Source: Gemmatimonadota bacterium (lineage in GTDB: Bacteria > Gemmatimonadota > Gemmatimonadetes > Longimicrobiales > RSA9). From it: a DNA stretch of 34,062 nt. The notes under the pieces were generated by a model. It saw only the letters and a list, made by a program, of their open reading frames with translations, did no database searches and was not told where the DNA came from. Below, piece by piece: positions 9,201 through 13,975 of this stretch (positions within the stretch are counted from its first letter, which is position 1; each line of letters opens with the position of its first letter). The DNA lies in assembly GCA_039715185.1 (NCBI GenBank), contig JBDLIA010000031.1, positions 1 to 34,062 on the forward strand. The letters run 5' to 3'. Position numbers and translations under genes: made by a program.

Positions 9201-10251
9201 TGGTGACCCCGATCGGGGAGGCCAGATCTTTGGCGGCCAGCGCTTGGTGGATCTCCAGCGCCGCGCCGATGGCCCGGGTCGCCGCGTCCTGAACAGCCAG
9301 CGGAGGAAGCCCGAAAGCGGCGATCAGAGCCGTGCCCTTGTCGTCCGAGGCGAGGCTGTAGATGCTCCCTCCGAAGCGCTCCAGCGCGCTCTGGATCGAC
9401 CGTACGGCAGAGTGGAGGCGTTCAAAATCGCCCACGTCCTTCGCCTCGCCGATTCCCACGAATAGAAGGGAGAGCCGCCGGAACTCGCCGAGCCAATCGT
9501 CCTGGCCGGCCTCCAGCCGGTGCGCCACCGCTCTCGGGATCTGCGCACGGAGGACGTCCAGCGCCGGTACCGCCGGCTGTATCGGGACCACGACTGGAAC
9601 CGCTCCCTGCGCCCCCTCGAATCTGAGGAGTCCACCCGCGAGAGGTTCGCCGGCTGCCGTCCCGATCAGAGCGGCCGCGCGCGCGGACAGCAGGACCTGA
9701 CCGGGGGTGCCCGCCGCGTCCACCTGCGCCAGCTGGGCGATGGCCTCTCCTTGCGCCAAAAAAAGCCAGTGCCCCTCCACGCCGCCCACTCGCAACGTAC
9801 TCAGCTGCCCAGCCCCCACCGAAGCTCGCAGGCGCAGCGTGACTTCCGGGTCCGGCTCGAGGCCGTCCAGCGTCGCGAGGATCTCCTTGCCACAGGACGC
9901 TGCGAGCAGCACGGCTTCCTTGAGCGCCTCGGCGCCCTCCATGCACTGCCATGCAGCGAGCACCGCGTCGCCGGCGAACAACACCACGTCGCCTCCGGCT
10001 CGCTCGATCACCCCGACCATGCGGCCGAAAGTCTGGTCCAGGACCTGGGACAGGCGCTCGGCGCCCGCGGAGCCCGTCGCCGCGAGGCGTCGCGTCAACG
10101 GGGTGAAGCCGGCCAGATCGGCGAACAGCACCGCGGCCACGCCGTCGATCCGCTCGGGGTCGCGCGGTGAATCCGTCCACCCTGCGACCCGCTCTCTCTC
10201 GTAGCGCGGAAGGAACGCCGCCAGCCGGCGTTCGAGGGAAGTCCCCGACAT
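6268..10251 (-). CDS. Soluble-adenylyl-cyclase-like protein: two class III cyclase domains, NTPase, TPR region
   Basis: The 1327-residue protein starts at ATG 10251, which shares one base with the stop of cruF (TGATG), so translation is probably coupled. Residues 36-200 form a first class III cyclase domain (C1), with metal-binding Asp45 in FADLAGFT and Asp95 in FAGDAVLAAW. Residues 258-425 form a second (C2), with SDDKGTALIAAFGLPP (302-317), GTVFCGAYG and PPINLSARLM (Asn375, Arg379, the transition-state pair of the family). Residues 438-600 are an AAA/NACHT-like NTPase with Walker A GEAGLGKST (468-476) and Walker B ILLLEDAHWFD. The rest is a long helical TPR-like region. The order C1-C2-NTPase-TPR and several blocks match animal soluble adenylyl cyclase (ADCY10). 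In C1 the usual adenine-selecting lysine four residues before Asp95 is Leu91, so substrate choice or activity is uncertain. No membrane helix or signal peptide is evident. Confidence 0.88.
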   Translation of the reverse strand: MSGTSLERRLAAFLPRYERERVAGWTDSPRDPERIDGVAAVLFADLAGFTPLTRRLAATGSAGAERLSQVLDQTFGRMVGVIERAGGDVVLFAGDAVLAAWQCMEGAEALKEAVLLAASCGKEILATLDGLEPDPEVTLRLRASVGAGQLSTLRVGGVEGHWLFLAQGEAIAQLAQVDAAGTPGQVLLSARAAALIGTAAGEPLAGGLLRFEGAQGAVPVVVPIQPAVPALDVLRAQIPRAVAHRLEAGQDDWLGEFRRLSLLFVGIGEAKDVGDFERLHSAVRSIQSALERFGGSIYSLASDDKGTALIAAFGLPPLAVQDAATRAIGAALEIHQALAAKDLASPIGVTTGTVFCGAYGGVERRHYAIVGPPINLSARLMKAAEGSILCDAATHDAAGGQVAFEASTTLSLKGFETDVVAYRPTTLATRAPVRATDQIVGRTAELRRLGSVLDSAERREGGTLIVEGEAGLGKSTLLGAFVHDADERGVRVLAGGGDSLRSSTLYFGWRSVLEGLLPSDVANRPAALRQALGEDARLNRWAPLLSAIVPVGLPENDTSREMTGETRAAGVQELVIRLLEWATQQEPTILLLEDAHWFDSPSNALIDAVARRVSNLQIVISMRPPTGPLPPELAAFANQAGVERLRLRPLGESDVQALVALALGVKRVPQELVDYVLRQAECHPFHSTELVRALRDRGLLEISGDGCRVHTESGHLEDIEAPASVQEIVLTRVDGLDAHLQLILKTASVIGRAFTVPMLRDVYPVREARARLDEGLALLADRDLIAPLDDAADGGGAFEFRHAIIEDVVYGALLFSQRRQLHRAVAEWYEHHGGLVERGRAPLLAHHWDRAEVRDRALGYLEAAGVEAVEAFSNREAVRFLSRAVELEAGGSLDVERTRRAEWERGLAEARIRLSQFHRARGHLERSLAHYGLRVHRSGVSLGASLLFHVGVQATHRLLPFVRVGGKRIRQRRAHGAMVYKRVAEVAYFDNDKLRLLHATLAALNMAEDCGAVAEQVNGFGSIAIVADLGGMSGLASRYMRRALEVAEASGRPSIIGRGHLLALIRAITRGDWDGAGASAERSTEMFAALGDRFRWETCKATYGYGFLLRGDFERAQEVYEEAARSARHGAPQAQTWARVGQLAAQLNAGAATDYAISEVERLLHAEDQSKTDLLTCSGILARAYLERGDSERALDAAIRTLEWLGGEPPAVYYPLWSIAGAADVFFALAEAGDDRAGATPFAWDGDASASARALSRLLRAHGKMFPICVPTARYYQGRLEALRGRPDRAVSLWREGAEAAQALGLTYDQALLERTASPPERPPKER

Positions 10252-11243
10252 CACCCGGGCGGCCCGTCCGGTTCCGGTGGCCGACCGTGATTGGGAGCGT
10301 CGTCGTGGTGCACGGCGAAGGTGGCGGTGAAGATCGTGATCGATGCGATCGCCGCCGTGATGCCCATGGCGAAGGGGGATATCAGGTGCACGTCCTGGAT
10401 GCGCGGCGAACCTAGCACGGCGTCGATCAGAGCCATCGCCATGTACGCGGACACCGGCATGATCGCGGTGAGGCGGGCAAGTCCCAGCGGCTTCCAATGC
10501 AAGTCGCGGCGGTGAACCGGTATGCGTCGCTCGAGGAACCTATACACCAGGAACACGACGAAGCTGGTCACCATCCAGCCCTGGTAATTCTGCCAAGGCA
10601 CCCCGAAGTGGGTGCTGGTCGTCGGCGGCAGACGCGTCGCGACGGCGCACTCGGTTGGCTCGGCCACGGCCACCAGCCATCGCCACGCGGGAATCGAGGT
10701 GGTCGCACCCGCGGCCGCCGCGTCCGTCGTCCCCGGTATGGCCTCGAAGCTCATGATCGGGTCCATGGTGATGTCCCACGCCGTCATCACCGCCGCGCTC
10801 AGAAGCGCCATCCAGACCACCCAACTGACGCGCGAGCTCGGGTTGCTCACCGCCCTGCCCTCGGCCACGAGATTCGCTATCACGTAGCTCGGGTAGAACA
10901 TCATGTACCAGGCGAACGGAATCAGGTACGGTATGCGTCCACCGATCTTGGGTCCGAACAGAGACGTGTAGCAGTATGGGCCGAACAGCCAGCCGTTGCT
11001 CTGGCCGACCCACTCGGCCGAGAGAGAAAGGAGCGTGGCGCAGGCGATCAACACGGAGGCGCGCCTCCACCCGAGCATGTACCAGGAGTGCACGAAGGCC
11101 AGCGAAGCAGCAACGGGCACCAAGATGGGCCAAGGAATCCGGTCTATGTCCGAGAAATGGGCGTGCCCGTGCAGCGCGATGAAGAAGAGGAAGAGTGCGG
11201 CTGCGAGGCCGAAGAGCAGCCAGTCCTTGGTGGTCTGTGACAA
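10251..11243 (-). CDS. cruF: CruF-like carotenoid 1,2-hydratase (carotenoid biosynthesis membrane protein)
   Basis: The 330-residue integral membrane protein has about seven hydrophobic segments. It matches the Caroten_synth family, which contains gamma-carotene 1',2'-hydratase CruF and bacterioruberin-pathway hydratases: SAEWVGQSNGWLFGPYCY (from about residue 75), the WDITMDP motif (156-162) and FGVPWQNYQGW (214-223). These enzymes add water to the end of acyclic carotenoids in the membrane. I chose TTG 11243 because AGAGGGG lies 5 nt upstream. The in-frame ATG at 11285 has no Shine-Dalgarno and lies inside the inverted-repeat element described next to it. About 45 extra residues, rich in Ala and Thr, sit between the DP motif and FGVPWQN. 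The stop overlaps the cyclase start by one base. The family call is firm; the exact substrate is not. Confidence 0.85.
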   Translation of the reverse strand: MSQTTKDWLLFGLAAALFLFFIALHGHAHFSDIDRIPWPILVPVAASLAFVHSWYMLGWRRASVLIACATLLSLSAEWVGQSNGWLFGPYCYTSLFGPKIGGRIPYLIPFAWYMMFYPSYVIANLVAEGRAVSNPSSRVSWVVWMALLSAAVMTAWDITMDPIMSFEAIPGTTDAAAAGATTSIPAWRWLVAVAEPTECAVATRLPPTTSTHFGVPWQNYQGWMVTSFVVFLVYRFLERRIPVHRRDLHWKPLGLARLTAIMPVSAYMAMALIDAVLGSPRIQDVHLISPFAMGITAAIASITIFTATFAVHHDDAPNHGRPPEPDGPPG

Positions 11244-11252
11244 CGTGGCCCC

Positions 11253-11421
11253 TCTAGAGGACTGTAACAGGTGAGTACTTGGCATTCGAGGGGCGATGCA
11301 TCCCGCCCGGGGTCGTTGGGACTCCTCGCAATAGCCCTGCTATTACTCGTCCTCCCGCCTCCCCGGATCGGGCGCCTCGCCCCTCTCGATGCTCAACTAT
11401 CACCTGTTACAGTCCTCTAGA
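11253..11421. repeat. 169-bp element with perfect 22-bp terminal inverted repeats
   Basis: The left arm (11253-11274, beginning TCTAGAGGACTGTAAC) and right arm (11400-11421) are exact reverse complements over 22 bp and enclose 125 bp. Both outer ends are the palindrome TCTAGA, so the arms can be read as 16-bp terminal repeats plus a duplicated TCTAGA, CTAG or TA target. Removing the element and one TCTAGA copy joins the receptor stop codon directly to the AGAGGGG ribosome site of cruF, which looks like an ancestral tight operon junction. A small internal hairpin (AATAGC-CCT-GCTATT) lies at 11331-11345. Alternatives are an invertible segment or a long-range RNA stem between the two operon genes. 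No transposase or recombinase is in the window. Confidence 0.85.
11271..11420 (+). pseudogene. 49-codon signal-peptide-like ORF resembling the start of the adjacent TonB receptor
   Basis: This ORF runs on the strand opposite to the flanking genes, inside the inverted-repeat element. It starts at GTG with GAGG 11 nt upstream and ends at a TAG in the right repeat arm. The product begins MSTWHSRGDASRPG, then has a hydrophobic run (LGLLAIALLLLVLPPP) and a DAQ that looks like a signal-peptidase site. The adjacent receptor begins MSTWRRRSASRPG and ends its signal at GEAQA. The DNA shares GTGAGTACTTGGC (11271-11283 and, on the minus strand, 13975-13963) and TCCCGCCCGGG at nearly the same offset. It looks like a detached copy of a receptor 5' end. 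Expression is unknown. Confidence 0.55.
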
Positions 11422-13975
11422 ACGTGAAAGTGACCGAGCCGAGCACCCTGCGTCGTATCAACGTTCCGCCGAACAGCTGATAGCGCTCCTGATCGAACAC
11501 GTTGGTGGCGACCGAACGGATCGTGACCCTGTCATTCACGACGTAGCCGGCGGAGAGATCCACGGTCTGGCTCGCCGGAACCGGTCCCGCGAAGATCCCC
11601 GACGCCCAGTCGTAGGCGCTCACGAAACGCGCGTCCGCGCGCAGGCTCAAGCCGGTCTCGCCCCGGTAGCCGAGCGATAGCTTCACCTTGTGCTCGGGAG
11701 TGTTGGGCAGCACCTGGTCGCCCGGCACGACCTCCGACGAGTCGACGTCGAACTCGAACAGCGAATAGTTGGCCTCGAGTTGGACGACATCCGAGAGCTG
11801 TGCCGTCGTAGCCAGCTCGACCCCCCACTCGTCCACCACTCCGGCGTTGCCGAGCGAGAACACCAGCGCCGTCTGGCCGTTCGGCAGCCTGGTAAGGCCC
11901 GCCGCGGAGACCGGATCCACCGCGGCCAGCCCGCCAAGAGCGGCCTGCTGCACGGCGTCTCGAGCGGCCGGGTCGATCCGGGCATCGGCGGTCCACGAGG
12001 GGAAAGCAGGGTTTACGCCAGGGAGCAGGTCGGTGACGAAGTTGCTGAGGCGTGAGAAGTAGGTGTCGACCGAAAACGACACGCGTTCGCCGACCTGGCG
12101 CCGGTAGCCGAGCTCGACCGACGTGACCCGCTCGGTCTCCAACTCCGGGTTGCCGATGGCGAGAACGGGCACCGCGCCCGAGCTGGAGAACAGCTCGCCG
12201 TCGGGCACGGCCAGCAGCGCGTCGCCGAGCGGGGACGCGCGTAGTCCCGCCTCCAGCGCCGTGAAATCCGCCGGCGGGCCGACAGGGAAATTCACGAATA
12301 GCTCCAGGGTATTGGGTACCTGGAAGGCTCGGTTCACCGAAAGCCGGATCGCCTGTTCGAAGGTGGGCTGATACACGAGCGCAGCCTTGGGCGAGAACTG
12401 GGCGTCGAAGATGTCGCCCTGATCGAAGCGAGCCGCCGCGACGAACCGAAGCTCCGGCACCAGGAAGTAGTCCATCTGTCCGTAGAGCGAACCGTACAGG
12501 TCGTGGCGCGCGTCGTCCGCCGCCAGTATCAACGTCTCGCGCGTGTCGATGAAGCTGTTGCGCAGGGAACCGCCCAGGACGATGCGGCCGCGGCCCTCCC
12601 ACAGCAGGCGGTTGTGCTGCAGCTCACCCTGCACCACGTGCGACCGGTCGTCGATCGGCGTGTTGGTGGCCAGCGACCAGCCAGGGTCGGAGGCGACGCG
12701 GCCGGAGTACCAGAAGGACGCGTTCCACCCGGCGTTGCCCCAGGCGACCCGCGCCCAGGGCCTGTAAGCCCGGTCTCGCTGGATGCGGCCGCCGCCCGTC
12801 ACGACGATCTCGTTCTGCACCTCCGCACCACCCGCTTCCACCGTGAGCTCGGACCCGTCAGCGCCGTAACGGTCCAGGCGCGCCGTGGCGTATAGGGCGG
12901 AGAGCCGATCGGGGGATCCCGTTGCGCTGGTGCCAATCTGACCGTCGGTGACCTGGCCTGCGACCGGCCGCAGCTCGAAACCGGGAGCGGGGGCGGTGAA
13001 CGACTCTTCCGTCGCGTCCGCGTATTCGCGATCCAGGTCGCCTACACCGGTCCGCGAACGATTCCAGGTGTCGCTGCTGGAGTAGCCGACATTCACGCGG
13101 TAGGCCCAGGAGCCATCGCCCAGGAGGCCGCTGCGGCGCAAGTCCCCGCGGGCGGTGCCTAGCGAACCGCCGCCGACGCTGATCTTGGTGCCGACAGTCT
13201 CGCGCGCCCTCGGGGTGCGGATGTCCAGGACTCCGGAGAACGCGTTCGCGCCGTAGAGCGCCGAGCCGGGTCCCCTCACCATTTCGATCCGCGCTACGTC
13301 CTCCAGCGGCATGGAAAACGCGGACCACTCCTGCGAGCCGACGAAGGCTAGCGACACGTCTCGCCCGTCTTGGAGCACCAACACGCGCCGATTGAGCGAA
13401 GTGTTGAAGCCGCGCGCGTTGACGTTGAAGTCGGTGACGTCGTTTTGCACCACGTCGACGCCTGGGTGTTGTGCCAGCGCAAGCGGCAGTTGGCCCGTGA
13501 CCGAAAGTCGGCGGGCGTCCTCTGGCTCAACGACCGAGACCGCGGCCGGCGCCTCGACGATGCGCTCCGCCCTTCGGGAAGCGGCCCGAACCGACACCTC
13601 ATCGATGGCGACGGGCTGGACCTCCAGGATGATCTCGACGCGCTGGTCCCCGGCTGTGGCAACGATTTCCACGAGGCGCGTCCGGTACCCGAGCCGAGAC
13701 GCGGACAGGCGCTGTGGGCCGAGCGGCACTCCCGTGATTATGAAGAAGCCGTCCGCGTCGGCCACCACTCCAGCGGCGCGGCCGACCAGGCCCACCGAGG
13801 CGTACGGGATGCCGGCGGCGCCCGCGCTCAGCACCCGGCCGCGCAGATCCGTGGTCGCCTGCGCCTCACCGGCGCTGGGCATCACGATACCGCCCAGGAT
13901 CGTAGCCCATACGAAAAAGCCCGGGCGGCTGAGAACTCCCGGGCGGGAAGCGGAGCGTCGTCGCCAAGTACTCAC
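11417..13975 (-). CDS. TonB-dependent outer-membrane receptor with carboxypeptidase-regulatory-like domain
   Basis: The 852-residue protein starts at GTG 13975 with GAGGG about 7 nt upstream. Residues 1-42 are a signal peptide ending near SAGEAQA. Residues 43-130 form a CarboxypepD_reg-like beta domain (DLRGRVLSAGAAGIPYASV, GFFIITGVPLGPQRLSA). A plug domain follows (VVEPEDARRLSVTGQLPLAL, ARGFN, VLQDGRDV, IEMVRGPGSALYGANAFSG), then a long beta-barrel ending in aromatic TFTF, typical for outer-membrane insertion. Such receptors import large or scarce ligands using TonB energy; the ligand here cannot be read from sequence. It is the first gene of the minus-strand operon with cruF, the cyclase and the desaturase fusion. 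Its stop codon lies inside the right arm of the inverted repeat, and its start shares 13 bp with the element. Confidence 0.92.
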   Translation of the reverse strand: MSTWRRRSASRPGVLSRPGFFVWATILGGIVMPSAGEAQATTDLRGRVLSAGAAGIPYASVGLVGRAAGVVADADGFFIITGVPLGPQRLSASRLGYRTRLVEIVATAGDQRVEIILEVQPVAIDEVSVRAASRRAERIVEAPAAVSVVEPEDARRLSVTGQLPLALAQHPGVDVVQNDVTDFNVNARGFNTSLNRRVLVLQDGRDVSLAFVGSQEWSAFSMPLEDVARIEMVRGPGSALYGANAFSGVLDIRTPRARETVGTKISVGGGSLGTARGDLRRSGLLGDGSWAYRVNVGYSSSDTWNRSRTGVGDLDREYADATEESFTAPAPGFELRPVAGQVTDGQIGTSATGSPDRLSALYATARLDRYGADGSELTVEAGGAEVQNEIVVTGGGRIQRDRAYRPWARVAWGNAGWNASFWYSGRVASDPGWSLATNTPIDDRSHVVQGELQHNRLLWEGRGRIVLGGSLRNSFIDTRETLILAADDARHDLYGSLYGQMDYFLVPELRFVAAARFDQGDIFDAQFSPKAALVYQPTFEQAIRLSVNRAFQVPNTLELFVNFPVGPPADFTALEAGLRASPLGDALLAVPDGELFSSSGAVPVLAIGNPELETERVTSVELGYRRQVGERVSFSVDTYFSRLSNFVTDLLPGVNPAFPSWTADARIDPAARDAVQQAALGGLAAVDPVSAAGLTRLPNGQTALVFSLGNAGVVDEWGVELATTAQLSDVVQLEANYSLFEFDVDSSEVVPGDQVLPNTPEHKVKLSLGYRGETGLSLRADARFVSAYDWASGIFAGPVPASQTVDLSAGYVVNDRVTIRSVATNVFDQERYQLFGGTLIRRRVLGSVTFTF

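Follow-up and report, generated by a model that had tools for sequence, protein, structure and literature searches.

Perfect inverted repeat between receptor and cruF

The window, i.e., the whole stretch of 34,062 nucleotides analyzed here, carries a perfect inverted repeat between a TonB-dependent receptor gene and a cruF-like carotenoid gene of the same direction. This raises the question of what the repeat delimits: a mobile insertion, an invertible switch or an RNA signal separating the two genes. We consider it near certain that the unit is a mobile foldback element and have good confidence in the more specific reading as a non-autonomous foldback MITE of the IS630/Tc1-mariner type that inserted into the TA of a CTAG target. 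Respective features are listed in Table 1.

Table 1. Features of the receptor-cruF junction within the window (positions 1 to 34,062).
Feature	Position	Strand	Evidence
Left 22-bp arm TCTAGAGGACTGTAACAGGTGA; target CTAG plus terminal inverted repeat	11253..11274	+	
Right 22-bp arm TCACCTGTTACAGTCCTCTAGA	11400..11421	-	
MITE, 161 bp, gene-less foldback	11257..11417	.	six copies with identical bounds; RNA fold z = -11.5
TA, left copy of putative target duplication, within CTAG 11254-11257	11255..11256	.	TA at the copies' edges
TA, right copy of putative target duplication, within CTAG 11417-11420	11418..11419	.	
Conserved structured core	11283..11394	+	covariance model R1, 105 bits
Tip hairpin of core, AATAGC CCT GCTATT within GCAATAGCCCTGCTATT	11329..11345	+	tip stem pairs covary
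TonB-dependent receptor gene, 852 aa, stop codon in target CTAG	11417..13975	-	Pfam TonB_dep_Rec_b-barrel, Plug
cruF-like carotenoid gene (Caroten_synth), probable TTG start 11243 behind AGGGG	10251..11243	-	Pfam PF04240

The two arms are perfect reverse complements with 125 nt between them, so that the preliminary description of this locus was right about both their exactness and their position. Within them, we find a second nested pair (11288-11312 and 11361-11385; 25 nt, 76%), i.e., the entire unit is a foldback. When considered as RNA of the minus (transcribed) strand, the unit is predicted to fold with -119.4 kcal/mol compared to -65.3 +/- 4.7 for shuffled sequences, which corresponds to the z-score given in Table 1. 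The element ends were refined via the other copies, an edge search and the empty site of a related element. That is, the foldback of 165 bp consists of the 161-bp element and two TA dinucleotides. The hexamer TCTAGA noted earlier on both sides is indeed present, but it is not a 6-bp duplication, since it is composed of the target CTAG with its TA plus the element ends. A chance origin of the foldback is excluded because copies are found elsewhere in the genome.

The receptor reading frame ends exactly at the element edge, and the right TA together with position 11417 forms its TAG stop codon on the minus strand. The encoded protein ends with VTFTF; a C-terminal Phe is usual in outer-membrane barrels. 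With the unit removed, the minus strand reads ..ACG TTC TAG AGGGGCC ACG TTG.., such that the receptor ends with Phe-stop and its TAG is directly followed by AGGGG, the cruF ribosome site. The tight operon junction proposed before is thus what the sequence yields. The ATG of the listed cruF reading frame (position 11285) falls within the element, and the true start is most likely the TTG from Table 1, while a coding-score gene call places the start near 11237. The host bases following the TA, GAGGGGCCACGTTG, retain the cruF ribosome site. Both the receptor's C-terminus and this ribosome site are preserved because the receptor's TAG stop was itself part of the target CTAG. An empty site for the window locus was not found among family relatives, which do not carry cruF at that place.

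Copies, target sites and placement at stop codons

Next, we studied the occurrence of the element in its host genome. Six near-full copies of the window's sub-family, including edges, are found with 92-98% identity. A covariance model of the core, called R1, gives 51 matches, which form three sub-families with unrelated ends. The element thus combines several dispersed genomic copies with the other marks of a MITE, i.e., it is short (161 bp) and gene-less and has terminal inverted repeats (the 22-bp arms, which include target bases). Sub-family (i) is the window type. Sub-family (ii) has the ends CTAGTGTACCGTTGCAGAAGTCCC and the tip stem CCGTAGC/GCTACGG, and sub-family (iii) is a 284-bp foldback with the ends CTAGCAGGTCGCTGAAAAAGGG and the tip CATAGC/GCTATG. 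A first impression that the latter is the 3' end of an autonomous gene was ruled out, since the 284-bp foldback holds no gene. More copies are probably hidden by the draft assembly, given that many copies are located at contig ends.

Shorter relatives are present as well, the smallest being the 25-bp palindrome CTAGTGGACTGTAACAGTCCACTAG. Such minimal core-less palindromes of two ends are located in G000 at C1:102974-102996 and C5:25467-25487, with 22-bp versions in loci L280 and L286; they are possibly remnants of core deletions. In three further loci (L257, L253, L278), elements stand back to back with one common CTAG, which looks like insertion of one into the edge of another; in some cases, the neighbors are from different sub-families.

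The copies also bear on the suggestion that the unit is an invertible segment, i.e., that a site-specific recombinase flips it via the 22-bp arms and thereby switches the receptor or cruF. Such a switch would fit the exact inverted arms on either side of the 125-bp centre, and invertible switches are known at TonB-linked loci of Bacteroidota. However, the host, whose relatives from the same order and phylum are titled Gemmatimonadota or Longimicrobiales, is not a member of Bacteroidota, no recombinase or DNA-rearrangement protein was found among the window genes scanned, and copies of the arms are scattered over many contigs beside unrelated genes. Furthermore, the arms resemble ordinary transposon ends, while the centre is itself the hairpin core with no promoter role indicated. 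We therefore dropped this reading as highly improbable.

Edges of the form CTA[G...C]TAG are observed in most well-resolved copies, with 1-2 extra bases between end and CTAG in a few. For four insertion sites in the complete genome G012, both flanks were joined and searched for within its genus. All four lie in core operons (L094, L131, L149, L159), namely at rpsI-rpsB, rpoB-rpoC, ribD-ribE and between an outer-membrane protein and an mtaB-like gene, where the genes were named from their sequence. G050, the closest relative, shows a continuous match across all four junctions. For the related element at rpsI-rpsB, the filled site reads AAGCGATA[element]TAGGCGACC and the empty site of a sister genome reads AAGCGATAGGCGACC with a single TA, i.e., the insertion duplicated the TA. 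At rpoB-rpoC and the mtaB-like site the relatives are empty, with spacers too diverged for reading a duplication, and at ribD-ribE the relative is continuous across the junction at the level of flank matches. G191 carries an element at the identical rpsI stop codon. Target duplication and empty site are hence both seen for a related element, and we infer the TA duplication at the window site from its edges. With many genomic copies, empty sites within the same order and TA duplication in CTAG, the earlier idea of a MITE-like insertion with target duplication holds.

A TA duplication that is mostly found inside CTAG is the signature of IS630/Tc1-mariner elements and leads to the IS630-type reading. 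IS630 inserts into TA, and a preference for CTAG is reported in literature cited by PMC2170065, as far as the respective titles by Tenzen tell. IS630-family elements (PF13358) of the relatives G012 and G058 have CTAGTGT.. ends. Compared to the ends of a relative's IS630 element, sub-family (ii) matches at 17/20 positions, the consensus of the window's sub-family at 12/20 (P = 0.0015) and the window copy alone at 10/20 (P = 0.035), while none of 50,000 random 20-mers drawn from the window reached 14. No resemblance to the IS630 ends compared was observed for sub-family (iii) and the end types AGCAGCCCGTGG and GGGCTCGCTC, and the core is absent from the IS630 loci examined.

The host draft of 252 contigs gave zero PF13358 matches, and the mobilising transposase is thus a deduced one. 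Insertion sequences are often lost from draft assemblies, so this absence does not amount to an exclusion. Taken together, the window type was likely moved by an IS630-type transposase. Here, a DDE transposase acting in trans would recognise the terminal repeats and paste the element into the TA of CTAG, duplicating the TA. As the CTAG at this locus held the receptor's TAG stop, such an insertion would leave the receptor's Phe-stop as well as the ribosome site of cruF intact, its only effect on the junction being a spacer longer by 163 bp.

We also evaluated the placement relative to genes. A stop codon is touched by 19 of the ~30 well-bounded copies in the host genome. CTAG itself is about 6-fold depleted in the window (17 found vs. 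~97 expected from base composition), and 7/17 of these sites are stop codons of called genes. Among CTAG sites without element, 27/72 are stop codons, such that the placement is mostly explained by CTAG targeting and the loss of in-gene insertions. A specific targeting of stop codons was therefore rejected; the residual enrichment is small (odds ratio 2.9, P = 0.03) and depends on home-made gene calls as well as on the count of ~30 well-bounded copies. CTAG targeting with loss of in-gene insertions is also a plain account of stop-codon hairpins in the phyla in which the element occurs (see below).

The same statistics weigh on the reading as a cis-acting RNA hairpin, i.e., one under selection as a terminator, attenuator or processing site that splits receptor and cruF expression. 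The very stable fold predicted between two co-directional genes and the frequent position right behind stop codons are in its favor, but the latter is largely expected from CTAG targeting. Compared to the upstream gene, 13 copies have the same and 20 the opposite orientation, i.e., there is no bias, and an RNA role in the direction of transcription was discarded on these grounds. In addition, related elements are located between rpoB and rpoC and between rpsI and rpsB, positions at which cells should not tolerate strong termination. We thus regard a terminator or dedicated regulatory function as quite unlikely. Of the mRNA stem that was suggested to separate the receptor from the downstream genes, the stem stands as a prediction while the separating role is unlikely, and beyond a long intercistronic mRNA hairpin there is probably no dedicated effect on cruF.

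Structured core with varied ends

What is unusual in these elements is the core that the sub-families have in common, in which asymmetric boxes flank a variable tip hairpin. In contrast to the ends, these boxes are conserved: CATTCGAGCGGCGATGCATCC / GGCGCCTCGCCGCTCTCGGTG and CTGCGTTGCTC / CGCGCCTTG show the same internal mismatches across phyla, whereas the tip stem varies. In a consensus fold from a sequence-only alignment of 26 cores of several lineages, two-sided changes are found at 19/28 pairs. Aligning 58 cores to the model raises this to 27/28 pairs, with 257 two-sided cells. Shuffles give 63 such cells, and sliding the partners by 1-3 columns gives 33-69. The 58-core alignment was built on the structure and thereby favors covariation, and the shuffles ignore relatedness; the conclusion of covariation stands since the independent 26-core alignment and the slide control agree.

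With regard to the folding strand, the core strand shows three conserved U-G pairs, while elsewhere A-C cells outnumber G-U cells, and the complement strand folds better in 7/8 elements and equally well in the remaining one. Given this mixed evidence, neither strand is claimed as the folding one. Rfam gave no family at or above the gathering score, the window yielding sub-threshold hits only, and a literature search with sequence motifs returned chance matches only. No description of the core was found in the literature; the MITEs Chunjie and Nezha lie outside the sequence comparison, so a known name may exist.

One may ask whether the core rather than the ends defines the mobile unit, i.e., whether a common enzyme recognises the fold and inserts the element at TA while the paired arms drift. 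A conserved core with unrelated ends, of which three types occur in a single genome, TA/CTAG edges common to the end types, and a fold preserved by covariation are in accordance with this reading. On the other hand, CTAGTG-type ends match IS630 ends clearly beyond chance, which drift would not yield. No linked mobility gene was identified, at the level of a listing of recurrent reading frames near elements, and the Gemmatimonadota carriers tested have no Y1/RAYT protein. We thus regard it as unlikely, albeit less so than the switch or the RNA signal.

For the preferred IS630-type MITE, we suggest that the core is kept because its folded strand may help the element to spread or persist, and that it may be joined to whatever ends an active transposase recognises. 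More generally, we tentatively propose, with slightly more doubt than belief, an undescribed cross-phylum superfamily of mobile hairpins with one structured core and varied transposon ends. Here, the core would be a functional ssDNA/RNA module that is bound by a common factor and aids the success of a MITE under any transposase. The usual description of bacterial MITEs is that of decayed copies derived from a single parent insertion sequence, with conserved ends and a free middle; we observe the reverse. Middle and fold are conserved together in Gemmatimonadota, Acidobacteriota and Desulfobacterota, and it is the ends that are swapped. If the core is functional, such elements are more than debris.

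Occurrence across phyla and relation to known systems

Model R1 matches 32/150 genomes of Gemmatimonadota, 33/199 genomes in the phylum of a Thermoanaerobaculia MAG (Acidobacteriota) and 13/198 genomes in the phylum of a Desulfobacterales MAG (Desulfobacterota), which makes at least three phyla, named here after record titles. An exact motif scan with one genome per species gave at least 120 stretches, mainly from Gemmatimonadota. The motif matches listed also include Thermoanaerobaculia, Desulfobacterales and other proteobacterial MAGs, and one Thermoanaerobaculia genome holds 51 exact motif copies. A motif match in Symploca was rejected as a member since it scores as chance with the model. 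No matches were found in viral contigs, phages and E. coli, and an origin from these was discarded. Two weak plasmid matches, from Desulfosarcina and Novosphingobium, show model scores of members or remote members. The one on the Novosphingobium plasmid (L230, 1479-1587) is a remote core of 42.7 bits that lacks CTAG edges and has quite different arms, GAAAAGGGCCC..GGGCCCTTTTC.

Among known systems, IS630 and ISY100 together with their derived MITEs share with the window element the TA duplication and the preference for TA in CTAG; the CTAGTGT.. ends of IS630 elements in relatives are similar. In contrast to IS630/Tc1-mariner elements, it has no transposase gene, a long foldback and a structured core. 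Chunjie from Geobacter uraniireducens and Nezha from cyanobacteria are likewise small multicopy foldback MITEs, a likeness by description only. Going by a title in PMC10969869, Chunjie was reported inside an operon without breaking it. MITEAba12 from Acinetobacter is, like the window element, gene-less with terminal repeats, and an insertion sequence resident in its host mobilises it (PMC6382973). Its conservation is mainly found in the ends, its middle is variable and its duplication spans 9 bp, whereas the window element shows a conserved middle, differing ends and TA. REP sequences with RAYT are also extragenic palindromes with many copies, some in arrays. Compared to these, the window element is a longer structured unit with a TA duplication, and a REP/RAYT assignment was rejected since no Y1 transposase (PF01797) was found in the Gemmatimonadota carriers tested.

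Beside single copies, arrays are observed. In L068 (491-1345; G012 C1:3738490-3739344), a 171-bp core-bearing unit is repeated in five head-to-tail copies with 99% identity, and shorter arrays are found in L069, L071 and L111. In L083, L100, L103, L094 and other Longimicrobiales loci, the left arm of many copies contains ~75 nt of AT-rich inserted sequence. A motif like ACATTACATTATGTCATGTCCGCTATACATT recurs in this insert and recalls a promoter or a protein-binding sequence. Finally, the same foreign sequence interrupts the right end at the same place in L094 (near 3708) and L101 (near 497; both in core orientation). It holds the start of a protein, MEEVSIIGIDLA.., with the look of a transposase of the IS110 type.
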